Below, piece after piece: positions 19,734 through 26,012 of a stretch of DNA of 64,000 nucleotides. Every line of letters starts with the position of its first letter. Positions within the stretch are counted from its first letter, which is position 1. A model generated the notes under the pieces. It ran no database searches. It was not told the origin of the DNA and saw only the letters and a program-made list of their open reading frames with translations. This stretch comes from PVC group bacterium. Lineage in GTDB: Bacteria > Verrucomicrobiota > Kiritimatiellia > CAIKKV01. Made by a program: the position numbers and the translations under genes. The stretch is taken from contig CAMDGM010000004.1 in the NCBI GenBank assembly GCA_945898015.1, forward strand, positions 1 through 64,000, given 5' to 3'.

Positions 19734-20228
19734 ATGGACTGGAGGATCAAGGTGATAGCATCCGAACGATTCAGGGTTGGCCGAACGGTTTCTGCTTGCA
19801 TGCTGTTGTGGCTGGCCGGTTGTTTGTCCGATCATCCCGGATCGAGCAGCCTGGCCTATGTGGATGTCGAGACGCCAAGCGTGGATGCCATTCAGGCGGA
19901 GATTATCCGCGTGTTTGAAGCTGACAATTATACGTTGTCGGACTCGTTTGGGAGCCTGGTGTTCGAACGCGAGGGCACCCAGCGAGACCGGGTGCTGTTC
20001 GGGCGATACGATGACGAGCGGCTGGTCATGCGGGTCGTGGTGTCGCTCGAATCCAGGCGGGTGGGTGGATATCTTGTTCGGGCGGACGTTTACGCGGTGC
20101 GCGATGGACGGGAAGAGTCCCTGTCCCGGCTGGCCAGTCGGTCTTATCAGAATCTGTTGAACCGGGTGAAGGCCAATTTGGCGACGTCGGGTGGCGCTGT
20201 CCAAGACGCGCGGCCGGCTCATCCGTAG
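19734..20228 (+). CDS. Putative lipoprotein of unknown function
   Basis: Lipobox-like LLWLAGC near the N-terminus; no recognised domain. Confidence 0.55.
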   Translation: MDWRIKVIASERFRVGRTVSACMLLWLAGCLSDHPGSSSLAYVDVETPSVDAIQAEIIRVFEADNYTLSDSFGSLVFEREGTQRDRVLFGRYDDERLVMRVVVSLESRRVGGYLVRADVYAVRDGREESLSRLASRSYQNLLNRVKANLATSGGAVQDARPAHP

Positions 20229-21334
20229 AATTTCGCGAGAAACGCGGGATTGGCTTCGGCATACAGGGTGGCGCCCACCCGGTCCGCCATGGCGATCGAC
20301 AGGCGCTCGTGGCGGCAGACGAGGCCGTCCACCCGGTCGATGGCGCCGGTGGTGGCGTAGTTGATACAGGAGCACCAGTTCATGCATCGGTCCCGGGAGG
20401 AACACTCCGCGCATTCCGGAACCCGGTTGCCCCGGCAGGCGAGGATGCCGGCCCGCTTGGCCCGGTCAAAGCCGTCGAACACGTTGCCGATCCGCAGCGC
20501 CTCGTTCGTGTCGTCCCCGACGATCCGTTCGCAGGGGTAAATGTTCCCGCTGGCCGCGATGGCGATTTCCTTCTCGCCGAATCCGCACTTGTCGCACGGG
20601 GCGTAACCCTCCTTGAGATGGACGCGGATCTTGCCGTCGATGACGTTAATGCGCTGCGGAATGCCTTTCCGGTAACAGCCGATGTAAAGATCGCCAATTT
20701 GTTCATAGGCCGCCTGCCAGGCGGCGAGCGCGGGTTCCGGCCAGGCTATGTAGAAATTCGGATTGAGCGAGATGGAGCGGATGTCCTGGGCGATCAGCCA
20801 CTCCACTGAATCGGCCAGATGCGCGATGTTCCGGGGATCCGGCACCATAATCACTTCGCCGGCCGCGGAAGGACCCCGGAAGAAGCGCAACGCCGCCGAG
20901 CAGGCGGCATGGGAGCCGCGCCCGTTGCGGAAGCGCCGCAGGGTGTTGTGCATGGACGCGTTGCCGTCCAGGGAGAGGCCCGCGTAAAAGCCGTTTTTCT
21001 TGAGCCAGGACGCCTTGGTTTCGTCCATCAAGGTCAGGTTGGTGGTGATGGTCTTGTTGAGCCGGATGCCCAGGCGTTCCGCCTCCGTGGCGGCATAGGC
21101 CGTGGCGCGTTGCAGCAGCGGCCATTCGAGGAGGGGTTCGCCGCCGAAGAATCCCAGTTGCGCCGGCGGGCTTTTTTCTCCGGTGAGGCGAGCCCGTTTG
21201 AGGGTGTTTTCCAGACAGAAGTCGATGGCGCGTTGGGCAACCGCCCAGGACATCCGGCGGTTGGATTTCGTCCCGGCATAACAGTATGCGCACCGCAGGT
21301 TGCAGGCGTGCGTCAGGCAGAGGGTGAAATCCAT
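20219..21334 (-). CDS. Radical SAM/SPASM domain protein (putative peptide maturase)
   Basis: CLTHACNLRCAYC (CxxxCxxC cluster), GGEPLLEW, C-terminal Cys-rich SPASM region (CDKCGFGEKEIAIAASGNIYPCERIVGDD; CAECSSRDRCMNWCSC). Confidence 0.85.
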   Translation of the reverse strand: MDFTLCLTHACNLRCAYCYAGTKSNRRMSWAVAQRAIDFCLENTLKRARLTGEKSPPAQLGFFGGEPLLEWPLLQRATAYAATEAERLGIRLNKTITTNLTLMDETKASWLKKNGFYAGLSLDGNASMHNTLRRFRNGRGSHAACSAALRFFRGPSAAGEVIMVPDPRNIAHLADSVEWLIAQDIRSISLNPNFYIAWPEPALAAWQAAYEQIGDLYIGCYRKGIPQRINVIDGKIRVHLKEGYAPCDKCGFGEKEIAIAASGNIYPCERIVGDDTNEALRIGNVFDGFDRAKRAGILACRGNRVPECAECSSRDRCMNWCSCINYATTGAIDRVDGLVCRHERLSIAMADRVGATLYAEANPAFLAKFYG

Positions 21335-21340
21335 GGGCGA

Positions 21341-21748
21341 TTAGGGCGTGCCGGCCGGTTCGCCGGGAACGCGCGGCAGGGGCATGCCGCCTTTCAGCCG
21401 GAGGGTGTCGCCACTCGGCGGCACGTTGGTGGTGGCGCAGGTGGTGGCCGTATTGGTTGGGGCGACCGGCGCGTTGGTGACGGCCGGCATTCGGCCTCTA
21501 AGGCGCACCGGTTCCACGGCGATTTCGCCGAGCAACTTGCCTTCCTTGACCGGTTCGGATTGCTTGACCGGCTTGGGTTCCTGAAGGGGCACTCCGGCCA
21601 GGGGTTTCGGCAGGTTATCCGCCTGCGCGCCGCAGGCCCAGGCCCCGAGCGCCAGGGCCGCCGCGCCGGCGATTTTCCGATGGCGAAGGAACTGCTGGCG
21701 GGTCGGATAGGCGGGCGTCTGGGCGGGATCGGTTTTGCTGACTTTCAT
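21341..21748 (-). CDS. Small protein adjacent to rSAM/SPASM gene; candidate precursor/substrate
   Basis: 135 aa; leader-like N-terminus (TRQQFLRHRKIAGAAALALGAWACGAQA), Pro/Thr-rich C-terminus with repeated RL(R/K)G(R/G)MP motif; 6 bp upstream of the rSAM gene. Confidence 0.5.
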   Translation of the reverse strand: MKVSKTDPAQTPAYPTRQQFLRHRKIAGAAALALGAWACGAQADNLPKPLAGVPLQEPKPVKQSEPVKEGKLLGEIAVEPVRLRGRMPAVTNAPVAPTNTATTCATTNVPPSGDTLRLKGGMPLPRVPGEPAGTP

Positions 21749-21860
21749 GAGGCACCCCTTTCCGGGCTGAAGTTGTCTGGATTTTGGCTCAAATGAGGCG
21801 CCGAGGCAAGCCTATTAGGAGTCGACCCGCGCGCGGAGTTGAAAAAACATGAAAATGGGA

Positions 21861-21890
21861 TTGACAGCAAGGCCCCTCATTTTCGACAAT
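21861..21890 (+). promoter_or_regulatory. Candidate sigma70-type promoter for ilv leader
   Basis: TTGACA (21861-21866), 18-nt spacer, GACAAT (21885-21890). Confidence 0.55.
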
Positions 21891-21896
21891 GACCAC

Positions 21897-22022
21897 ATGA
21901 AGATCATGAAGGACAGCTTCACCGTGAGCAACCGCGCCGCCGCTCCGTTTCAGACGGGGCTGGATGTCGTGGTTGTTATTCTGGCCGTAACAGGCCTTGC
22001 GGTGGGGGATCGCCCTTCCTGA
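21897..22022 (+). CDS. ilv leader peptide (attenuator control peptide), 41 aa
   Basis: ATG...TGA encodes MKIMKDSFTVSNRAAAPFQTGLDVVVVILAVTGLAVGDRPS with a VVVVILAV run upstream of ilvBN. Confidence 0.85.
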   Translation: MKIMKDSFTVSNRAAAPFQTGLDVVVVILAVTGLAVGDRPS

Positions 22023-22075
22023 GTTGGAGACCCAGATCAACAGGAAGCCCACCGCCGGAAGCGGTGGGTTTTTTT
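21999..22075 (+). promoter_or_regulatory. Transcription attenuator: mutually exclusive antiterminator/terminator
   Basis: CCCACCGC (22048-22055) can pair with GCGGTGGG at 21999-22006 (antiterminator, reinforced by CTTCCTG 22015-22021 : CAGGAAG 22041-22047) or with identical GCGGTGGG at 22061-22068 (terminator) followed by T7. Confidence 0.88.
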
Positions 22076-22089
22076 GTTAAGGAGAGACC

Positions 22090-23811
22090 ATGAGAACGGG
22101 TGCGCAGTGTGTGATTGACGGGTTGAAGGATGCGGGGGTGACCACGGTCTTCGGGCTTCCCGGGGGCGCGGTTTTGGATTTGTTCGACACCCTGTCCCGG
22201 GCGCCATTCGAGTTTGTGCTCGTGCGCCATGAACAGGGCGCCGCCCATATGGCGGATGGCTATGCCCGCGCCACGGGGCGGACGGGCGTCTGCATGGTGA
22301 CCTCCGGGCCGGGGGCCACGAACACGGTGACCGGCCTGGCCACCGCGCATATGGACGGCGTGCCCATCGTGTGCGTGACCGGCCAGGTGCCGAGCCATAT
22401 GATCGGCAACGACGCGTTCCAGGAAGCGGACACCGTGGGCATCACCCGCGCCGTCACCAAGCACAATTACCTGGTGCGCAATGTGGATGACCTTCCCCGG
22501 ATCATGGCCGAGGCGTTCAAGATTGCCCGCACGGGCCGTCCGGGCCCGGTGTTGATCGATATCCCCAAGGATGTGCAACGCGCCAAGACGGCGGCGGTGT
22601 TCACGGGCGATCCGGACATCCGCAGCTACAAGCCCATGGAACGCGGGCATCCCAAGCAGATCACCCGCCTGGCCCAGGCCATCAACAAGGCACGGAAGCC
22701 GTTGTTTCTCGTGGGGGGCGGCGTGATTGCGGGTGAAGCCTCGGCGGAATTGACCGAACTGGCCCGCAAGGCCGGGGTGCCGGTGGCCACGACCCTGCTC
22801 GGGCTCGGGGCGTTTCCCGAGACGGATCCGCTGGCGCTTCGCATGGTGGGCATGCACGGGTTTGTGGCGGCCAACCGCGCCATCAGCGCCTGTGACCTGC
22901 TGGTTTCCGTGGGTGCCCGCTTCGACGACCGCGTGACCGGCAAGATCTCGGAATTCGCGCCGCATGCCACGATTGCCCACATCGACATTGATCCCTCGGC
23001 CATCTCCAAGAGTGTGGAAACGCATATTCCTGTGGTGGGCCATGTCAAGCAGGTGTTGCAGGCGCTTCTCCTGGAGGTGCAATCCGTGGACCGGAGCGGG
23101 TGGCTGACCCAGCTGGACGAGTGGAAAAAGCAGAGCCCGGCCGCTTACGACGTCCACTCCAAGGTGTTGCTGCCCCAGTTCGTGATCGAGAAGATCTACG
23201 AGGTGTCGAAAGGCAATGCGATCGTGGTGACCGACGTGGGCCAGCACCAGATGTGGTCCGCTCATTTTTACAAATACACCCAGCCCCGGACGTTCCTGTC
23301 GTCGGGCGGCCTGGGCACGATGGGCTTCGGCCTGCCGGCTGCCATCGGCGCGCAGCTGGGCCGGCCCGACAAGCGGGTGGTCACGATCTGCGGGGACGGC
23401 GGCATCCAGATGAACTTCCAGGAGCTGGTGGTGGCGGTGGAGCACAAGCTGCCCGTGGCCGTCGTGATCCTGAATAACGGACGCCTCGGCATGGTGCGGC
23501 AATGGCAGGAGATGTTCTACGCCAAGCAGTATTCCGCGTCGATCCTGACGCCCGACGGCCGCCCGGCGAACGAGCGGATGGCGGATGCGAAGCCCGGCAA
23601 ATATCTTCCGGATTTCGTCATGATGGCCGAGGCGCATGGCGCGCTGGGCCTCCGCGTGACGCGCCAGGAGGAGGTGGTGAAGGCGCTCGAGAAGGCCTTC
23701 ACGGCCACCGGTCCGGTGGTGGTGGAATGCATCGTGGCCCCGGAGGAGAACGTGTACCCGATGGTGCCGCCCGGAGCGTCGTTGACCGAAATGATCCAGA
23801 GCATGGCATAA
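22090..23811 (+). CDS. ilvB: Acetolactate synthase large subunit
   Basis: MRTGAQCVIDGLKDAGVTTVFGLPGGAVLDLFD, VTSGPGATNTVTGLATAHMDGVP, ThDP motif GDGGIQMNFQELVVAVEHKLPVAVVILNN. Confidence 0.96.
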   Translation: MRTGAQCVIDGLKDAGVTTVFGLPGGAVLDLFDTLSRAPFEFVLVRHEQGAAHMADGYARATGRTGVCMVTSGPGATNTVTGLATAHMDGVPIVCVTGQVPSHMIGNDAFQEADTVGITRAVTKHNYLVRNVDDLPRIMAEAFKIARTGRPGPVLIDIPKDVQRAKTAAVFTGDPDIRSYKPMERGHPKQITRLAQAINKARKPLFLVGGGVIAGEASAELTELARKAGVPVATTLLGLGAFPETDPLALRMVGMHGFVAANRAISACDLLVSVGARFDDRVTGKISEFAPHATIAHIDIDPSAISKSVETHIPVVGHVKQVLQALLLEVQSVDRSGWLTQLDEWKKQSPAAYDVHSKVLLPQFVIEKIYEVSKGNAIVVTDVGQHQMWSAHFYKYTQPRTFLSSGGLGTMGFGLPAAIGAQLGRPDKRVVTICGDGGIQMNFQELVVAVEHKLPVAVVILNNGRLGMVRQWQEMFYAKQYSASILTPDGRPANERMADAKPGKYLPDFVMMAEAHGALGLRVTRQEEVVKALEKAFTATGPVVVECIVAPEENVYPMVPPGASLTEMIQSMA

Positions 23812-23830: not shown

Positions 23831-24304
23831 ATGAAACATATCGTGACGTTGTTGGTGGAAAACAAGCCCGGGGTGCTGGCCCGGATCGTGGGCCTCATCT
23901 CGGGGCGGGGGTATAACATCGAGGGGCTGACCGTGGCGTCGACCCTGGACCCCGAGGTTTCCCGGATGACCATCGAGGTGCCCGGCGATGACCGCGTGAT
24001 TGAGCAGGTGACGAAACAGCTCAACAAGCTGGTCGACGTGATCAAGGTCGCGGACTTGACCGCGCAGCGTTACATCGGGCAGGAGCTGGTCTTTCTCAAG
24101 GTGGCGGTCGGCGAGGAGCAGCGGGGCGCCGTGATGGACCTGGTGGGGGTGTTTGGCGCCAAGGTGATCCTGGTGCAGCCCAATTCCCTGGTGATCCGCC
24201 TGGTGGATGAGCAACAGAAAATCGCGGATTTCCTCGACGTGATGAAACCCTATCGTGTGCAGGAGATTAATCGGTCGGGCCTGATCGCCATGGCGGCGGA
24301 TTGA
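23831..24304 (+). CDS. ilvN: Acetolactate synthase small (regulatory) subunit
   Basis: MKHIVTLLVENKPGVLARIVGLISGRGYNIEGLTVAST (ACT domain). Confidence 0.95.
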   Translation: MKHIVTLLVENKPGVLARIVGLISGRGYNIEGLTVASTLDPEVSRMTIEVPGDDRVIEQVTKQLNKLVDVIKVADLTAQRYIGQELVFLKVAVGEEQRGAVMDLVGVFGAKVILVQPNSLVIRLVDEQQKIADFLDVMKPYRVQEINRSGLIAMAAD

Positions 24305-25183: not shown

Positions 25184-25205
25184 CGGAGTCACGGGAGTGT
25201 GTGTG

Positions 25206-26012
25206 ATGCAAGACGCGGAATGGATTATCATCCGGGATTGGTTTCAAGGATATGAAGCGTGTTTTTCCGGGCCGGACGGCAAACTGCCGCCCCTGCTTCA
25301 GGGCAAGGCCGGCCATAGCCGGCGCGTCTCGGCCAACGCCCGCGACCTGGCCGTGGACCTCGGCCATTCCCGGGGCGAGGTGCTTCACGCGCAAACCGCC
25401 GGCCTGCTCCATGACGTGGGGCGTTTTCCGCAATTCCGCGATTTTGGCACCTTTTCGGATCCCCGGTCCATTAACCATGGCGAGCGGGGATGGACTGTGT
25501 TATGCGAGGATCCGGATTTTCTACGGTTGTCCGTGTCCCGGCGCGGTGACCTGCTGGCGGCCGTCCGCCACCATAACTGCCGGGTGTTGCCGGAGCAGTT
25601 AAGCCCGTCCGAGCGGCATCTGACGGAGATTGTCCGGGATTCGGACAAACTGGATATTTTCAAAGTCATTCTCGATGCGATCCAAAGCGGGGATGTCGAG
25701 AAGAACGAGACGATTTTCCTGCATGTTCCGGCGGAGGGCGGTCCCAATCCCCTGATTGTGGAGTGTATCCGGAATGGGCGGACCGCGTCTTATGAGCATA
25801 TCCGGAATCGCACGGATTTCGGGCTGCAGCTTCTTTCGTGGGCGTTCGATCTGGCGTTTGACGCCACTTGTCGCCGCCTGATTGACCGGGGGCTGTTTGA
25901 TGCGATTATTGCGCATTTGCCTGACGATCCGACCGTGCGCGAGTCCGTGGATATTGCCCGGACGCATCTTCATCGCCGGGTGGCTGCCGCCGGCGCCGCC
26001 GGCCAGGCATAA
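25206..26012 (+). CDS. HD-domain phosphohydrolase
   Basis: GHSRRVSANARDLAVDLGHSRGEVLHAQTAGLLHDVGRFPQFRDFGTF; upstream in-frame GTG at 25197 also possible. Confidence 0.75.
   Translation: MQDAEWIIIRDWFQGYEACFSGPDGKLPPLLQGKAGHSRRVSANARDLAVDLGHSRGEVLHAQTAGLLHDVGRFPQFRDFGTFSDPRSINHGERGWTVLCEDPDFLRLSVSRRGDLLAAVRHHNCRVLPEQLSPSERHLTEIVRDSDKLDIFKVILDAIQSGDVEKNETIFLHVPAEGGPNPLIVECIRNGRTASYEHIRNRTDFGLQLLSWAFDLAFDATCRRLIDRGLFDAIIAHLPDDPTVRESVDIARTHLHRRVAAAGAAGQA

Follow-up and report, generated by a model that had tools for sequence, protein, structure and literature searches.

A candidate attenuator ahead of ilvBN

The valine/isoleucine/leucine biosynthetic genes ilvB and ilvN, which encode acetolactate synthase, are preceded in the genome studied here by a short valine-rich open reading frame (ORF) and by two copies of one sequence that can pair with the same partner. 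This raises the question of whether the region is a ribosome-mediated transcription attenuator, as a preliminary description had proposed from the DNA letters, and how widely such control may be spread among related bacteria. The locus lies within a window of 64,000 nucleotides (contig CAMDGM010000004.1, assembly GCA_945898015.1), the whole stretch of DNA that was analysed. The host, an uncultured bacterium that the preliminary description had conditionally called PVC-like, does belong to the PVC group, class Kiritimatiellae. The parts of the locus are the following, in window coordinates:

21861-21890, + strand: promoter, composed of TTGACA (21861-21866), an 18-nt spacer and GACAAT (21885-21890), 6 nt upstream of the leader ATG
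21897-22022, + strand: leader peptide ORF of 41 codons, ilvL-like, MKIMKDSFTVSNRAAAPFQTGLDVVVVILAVTGLAVGDRPS, predicted leaderless and without a Shine-Dalgarno sequence
21966-21989, + strand: putative control codons inside the leader ORF, Val4-Ile-Leu-Ala-Val (GTC GTG GTT GTT ATT CTG GCC GTA)
21999-22021, + strand: segment 2, 5' arm of the putative antiterminator, GCGGTGGG (21999-22006) plus CTTCCTG (22015-22021)
22041-22055, + strand: segment 3, the shared arm, CAGGAAG (22041-22047) plus CCCACCGC (22048-22055), which can pair with segment 2 or segment 4
22048-22075, + strand: predicted intrinsic terminator, CCCACCGC-CGGAA-GCGGTGGG-T7 (segments 3:4), conserved in relatives
22082-22086, + strand: Shine-Dalgarno-like GGAGA ahead of ilvB (AAGGAGAGACCATG)
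22090-23811, + strand: ilvB, acetolactate synthase large subunit (TIGR00118, 793 bits, cut-off 538)
23831-24304, + strand: ilvN, acetolactate synthase small subunit (TIGR00119 / NF008864, above cut-off)

The 41-codon leader with VVVVILAV, both copies of GCGGTGGG, CCCACCGC and the T run were all found where the preliminary description had placed them, segment 4 being the second copy of GCGGTGGG (22061-22068) and T7 occupying 22069-22075. Flanking A-T pairs lengthen the terminator stem. As had also been proposed, the Val/Ile/Leu codons lie just before the antiterminator arm, and the CTTCCTG part of segment 2 overlaps the leader stop codon (22020-22022). The antiterminator, estimated earlier at about 15 bp, has indeed 15 pairs, all Watson-Crick, but an 8-nt bulge (22007-22014) interrupts it. 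TTGACA-18-GACAAT is the sole consensus promoter within 21500-22300 (800 bases scanned). The locus presents the features by which attenuators are recognised: end-product codons clustered upstream of an operon, an antiterminator and a terminator that exclude each other, the corresponding placement of control codons and stop codon, and codons that match the pathway.

Predicted regulation and RNA folding

On the basis of all these parts, their conservation, the covariation of the arms, the placement of the promoter and the codon content in relation to the downstream gene, the locus is very probably a ribosome-mediated transcription attenuator, through which the availability of charged Val (and Ile/Leu) tRNA would govern transcription of ilvBN. 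From the sequence we infer that ribosomes stall, that transcription terminates and where exactly it starts. RNA polymerase would begin at the leader AUG or a few bases from it, and the ribosome would load directly on the leaderless 5' end. When Val-, Ile- or Leu-tRNA is short, the ribosome would halt at codons 24-31 and leave segment 2 free to pair with segment 3 once this is transcribed; with segments 2:3 paired, no terminator would form and ilvBN would be transcribed. When the tRNAs are charged, the ribosome would reach the stop codon and cover segment 2, segments 3:4 would pair, and transcription would end at the T run near 22075.

The computed free energy of the antiterminator as drawn is -22.1 kcal/mol (-26.5 with the inner hairpin) versus -20.2 for the terminator. 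In the RNA model, when the ribosome is halted at the Val/Ile codons, segments 2:3 form while segment 4 has yet to be transcribed (-27 to -35 kcal/mol over the exposed region), and when it stands at the stop codon only the terminator (segments 3:4) is left. At equilibrium, the modelled full transcript adopts the terminator fold even if segment 2 is left uncovered; antitermination must therefore be kinetic, as in known attenuators.

Conservation of the leader among Kiritimatiellae

The regions upstream of ilvB were gathered from about 60 members of the class, and a promoter, an ORF and a terminator were sought in each. The preliminary description had named homologous loci without the Val-rich ORF and competing stems as evidence against attenuation; the opposite was seen, since 43 ilvB loci, each in a different genome and together representing 22 family-level groups, keep the full set of parts. 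This comparison across relatives strongly supports the ribosome-mediated attenuation of ilvBN that had been proposed. No clear antiterminator pairing was found in some relatives (L016, L127), and no leader was found upstream of ilvB in some class members (e.g., L111, L128, and L019-L021). In L111 (G124), where IlvB is 73% identical and the attenuator is absent, short AAGATTA-like repeats are found immediately ahead of the gene.

Covariation in the regions upstream of ilvB had been suggested as a check. Because leader lengths vary too much for a covariance model, we chose a cross-pairing permutation test, in which segment 3 of each species was matched both to the segment 2 region of that species and to the segment 2 regions of other families. 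Arms 1 and 2 do covary: the mean pairing energy is -19.7 kcal/mol for native pairs versus -15.9 for cross-family pairs (set of 42), native pairing is favoured in 19/22 families (Wilcoxon p=7e-4), and against dinucleotide shuffles the median z is -2.1 to -2.2 (about -2.1 at the family level). Segment 2 starts in leader frame 0, 1 and 2 in 18, 15 and 9 cases, respectively; as all three reading frames occur, what is conserved is the RNA, not a peptide.

The placement of the codons is conserved as well. Of the 15 codons preceding segment 2, 52% encode Val, Ile or Leu, versus 30% earlier in the leader, and across relatives the distance from the start of segment 2 to the start of the stop codon is 8-33 nt (median 23). 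Every Val, Ile and Leu codon has T at position 2. Among four members of family f28, position 2 shows no change in three of the six pairs, against 5-9 changes at positions 1 and 3, a pattern that points to selection in favour of codons for Val, Ile and Leu.

We also searched 58 related genomes for the arm pattern CGGTGG-N(22-52)-CCCACCG-N(3-11)-CGGTGGGTTTTT, using the reversed pattern as control. There were 14 exact matches and none for the control. All but one of the matches lie directly upstream of ilvB, leuA or ilvC (13/14); the 14th (G015:C60) sits at the end of a contig and agrees in sequence with the ilvB leaders of sister genomes. The leader architecture is more than chance.

In other classes of the same phylum, one branched-chain amino acid (BCAA) leader was found among about 40 upstream regions. 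This leader (L225), located before ilvB of G277, reads ...LPVVTGLLSVVVVIL, has a terminator and a Shine-Dalgarno-like box, and is apparently not leaderless. At the Desulfobacterota loci L066, L074 and L084, ilvB is preceded by short Ile/Leu-rich ORFs that carry CE or ACE close to their ends, two of the ORFs finishing in GLIMA, and that are followed by strong terminators; these are probably BCAA attenuators too.

Codon content and downstream gene

Leaders are also present before leuA, 32 in total, in 14 family-level groups. Most of them came from a relaxed scan for promoter, start codon and terminator that imposed no amino acid requirement and that recovers 43/45 known leaders; a strict-stem terminator finder combined with a Leu/Val-run filter had missed them. 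Some of the leuA matches (e.g., L299, L319 and L362) may be due to chance. The leuA leaders are Leu-rich and Val-poor (for example MIRSGLLRRLLLLLLLEG), and the ilvB leaders are rich in both Val and Leu: the median V/(V+L) is 0.18 in the former versus 0.57 in the latter (family-level Mann-Whitney p=4e-6).

The leuA leader of this genome (L155, G000:C11) is MKWITNLILPEGLLGLFSSPGRISRT, with six Leu and no Val. The second ilvC copy of the genome has an Ile leader, MMNRTTPQLTVPSQASFRENGTRAIIGIISSPGAVEMLAS (...RAIIGIISSPGAVEMLAS), in which four of five successive codons are Ile:

L271 1398-1590 (G000:C3 near 89720-89915): Ile-rich attenuator before the second ilvC copy, predicted leaderless

This second copy is followed by a LeuA-family gene, perhaps a citramalate synthase. 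Among 28 class members, no ilvC leader was found other than that of this second copy, and neither trpE nor hisG has such a leader in this genome or in 20 relatives.

Three genomes (G005, G009 and G053) lack the window-type ilvB and have a homologous-looking attenuator directly before leuA, in which Val is lowered relative to Leu in comparison with sister genomes. The leader set offers a case of control codons changing along with the downstream gene.

Leaderless start of the leader peptide

For 45 leaders, we picked the promoter independently of the ORF. In 40 of the 45, 5-11 nt separate the end of the -10 hexamer from the leader start codon (shuffled sequences: mean 1.5, maximum 5 of 45); in the window, this distance is 6 nt. 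An AGGAGG-like box (5 of 6 positions) precedes none of the 45 leader starts, and 20/45 structural genes have one. With the -10 box so near to the leader AUG, the predicted transcription start is at the AUG or within a few bases of it, and the ilvB leaders are predicted to be leaderless or nearly so. About 75 leaders with the start codon at the predicted transcription start give a clean comparative example of coupling between leaderless translation and transcription.

The predicted leaderless form, the codon content that tracks the downstream gene and the two further leaders in this genome (ilvC and leuA) go beyond the preliminary description.

Alternative explanations

The Val-rich ORF could be translated without acting as a sensor, the hairpins being a terminator with fixed readthrough or one that responds to the general translation or ppGpp state instead of to specific charged tRNAs. 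A similar ilvB leader, that of Streptomyces coelicolor, gives this explanation some ground: as cited in PMC1262725, replacing its putative control codons left regulation unchanged, so that anatomy alone is no proof that a codon sensor works. We nevertheless consider it unlikely, as the codons track the downstream gene over family-level groups (Leu for leuA, Val and Leu for ilvB, Ile for ilvC; p=4e-6) and the V/I/L enrichment is strongest just before segment 2.

Terminator/antiterminator architecture is shared by T-boxes, and the leader RNA could be a T-box or riboswitch, binding tRNA or a ligand, with the ORF incidental. This is very improbable, given that neither the window nor any of 20 related loci reaches the gathering score for an Rfam family other than tRNAs, that no T-box match appears at E up to 10, and that the ORF fills the distance from promoter to arm, with the arm in all three frames and no sign of a conserved aptamer. 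The Rfam leader families are likewise below the gathering score in the window and the 20 loci (best, Phe_leader, 24.9 bits versus 55), and the ilvB-named families do not match the window leader at E up to 10. GC-rich terminators like this one are common, and the hairpin might have been an ordinary terminator of another transcript accompanied by chance Val codons. This we regard as having almost no probability: conservation refutes it, all 14 pattern matches belong to BCAA genes (13 by position and one by sequence) with none for the reversed control, and the gene upstream of the leader is divergent, so the terminator cannot end its transcript.

Comparison with known attenuators

The enterobacterial ilvB (ivbL), ilvGMEDA (ilvL) and leu attenuators have a BCAA-rich leader peptide and a 2:3 antiterminator set against a 3:4 intrinsic terminator, and their leaders have an ordinary 5' UTR with a ribosome binding site. 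The window leader is like them in leader peptide, competing segments and target pathway; it differs in that its predicted transcription start coincides with the ORF start or lies a few bases from it, and in the absence of Rfam-level sequence similarity.

Leaderless leader peptides are described in Streptomyces lividans, where IlvL, LeuL and TrpL precede ilvBHC, leuA and trpE, with an intrinsic terminator after some (PMC8079986). That species belongs to another phylum, its leader peptides are short (12-18 aa for Leu/Trp/Ilv), and its leuA leader is without a typical terminator (PMC8079986). The trpL attenuator of Sinorhizobium meliloti, whose RNA 5' end is the AUG of the leader ORF, resembles the window in the AUG 5' end predicted here; it senses tryptophan, however, and is from another phylum (PMC7298713). 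According to the accessible part of PMC10272879, a uORF rich in BCAA codons precedes ilvB in the ilvB-II, ilvB-OMG and Leptospira ilvB motifs, a BCAA uORF precedes ilvB in Corynebacterium, and a terminator/antiterminator is shown for ilvB-II. The window leader shares such a uORF with the three motifs and matches no ilvB-named Rfam family at E up to 10; that part of the paper makes no mention of Kiritimatiellae. Within the PVC group, the YtgR/trpRBA system of Chlamydia trachomatis links amino-acid-dependent ribosome stalling to transcription termination, but it acts in trans via a repressor, and a cis-acting trpL is only putative (PMC7755916).

A search of mostly open-access papers turned up no earlier account of attenuation by leader peptides in either Kiritimatiellae or Verrucomicrobiota. 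The class probably has a class-wide regulon of leaderless attenuators, before ilvBN, leuA and sometimes ilvC, with codons tuned to each product, for which we found no earlier PVC report, and with two probable natural cases in which ilvBN was lost and the attenuator now precedes leuA. The mechanism is an ordinary one; what is new is its phylogenetic place, its spread across the class, the predicted leaderless form there and the clean match between codons and downstream gene. Classical attenuation is placed in a bacterial class from which no earlier report was found, and in which it is widespread.

Neighbouring genes

A prepilin peptidase gene (PF06750/PF01478; 24314-25183, + strand) starts 10 nt past ilvN, and the next gene encodes an HD-domain protein (25197-26012, + strand). 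Both are possibly co-transcribed with ilvBN, in which case they would be under attenuator control. On the - strand, window positions 20219-21748 hold a gene for a radical SAM/SPASM protein similar to PapB-type ranthipeptide maturases, below the curated cut-off, next to one for a 135-aa protein. The latter has a basic N-terminus, after which comes a hydrophobic stretch, and repeated L[RK]G-x-MP-like motifs (LRGRMP, LKGGMP); the two could form a RiPP precursor-maturase pair.
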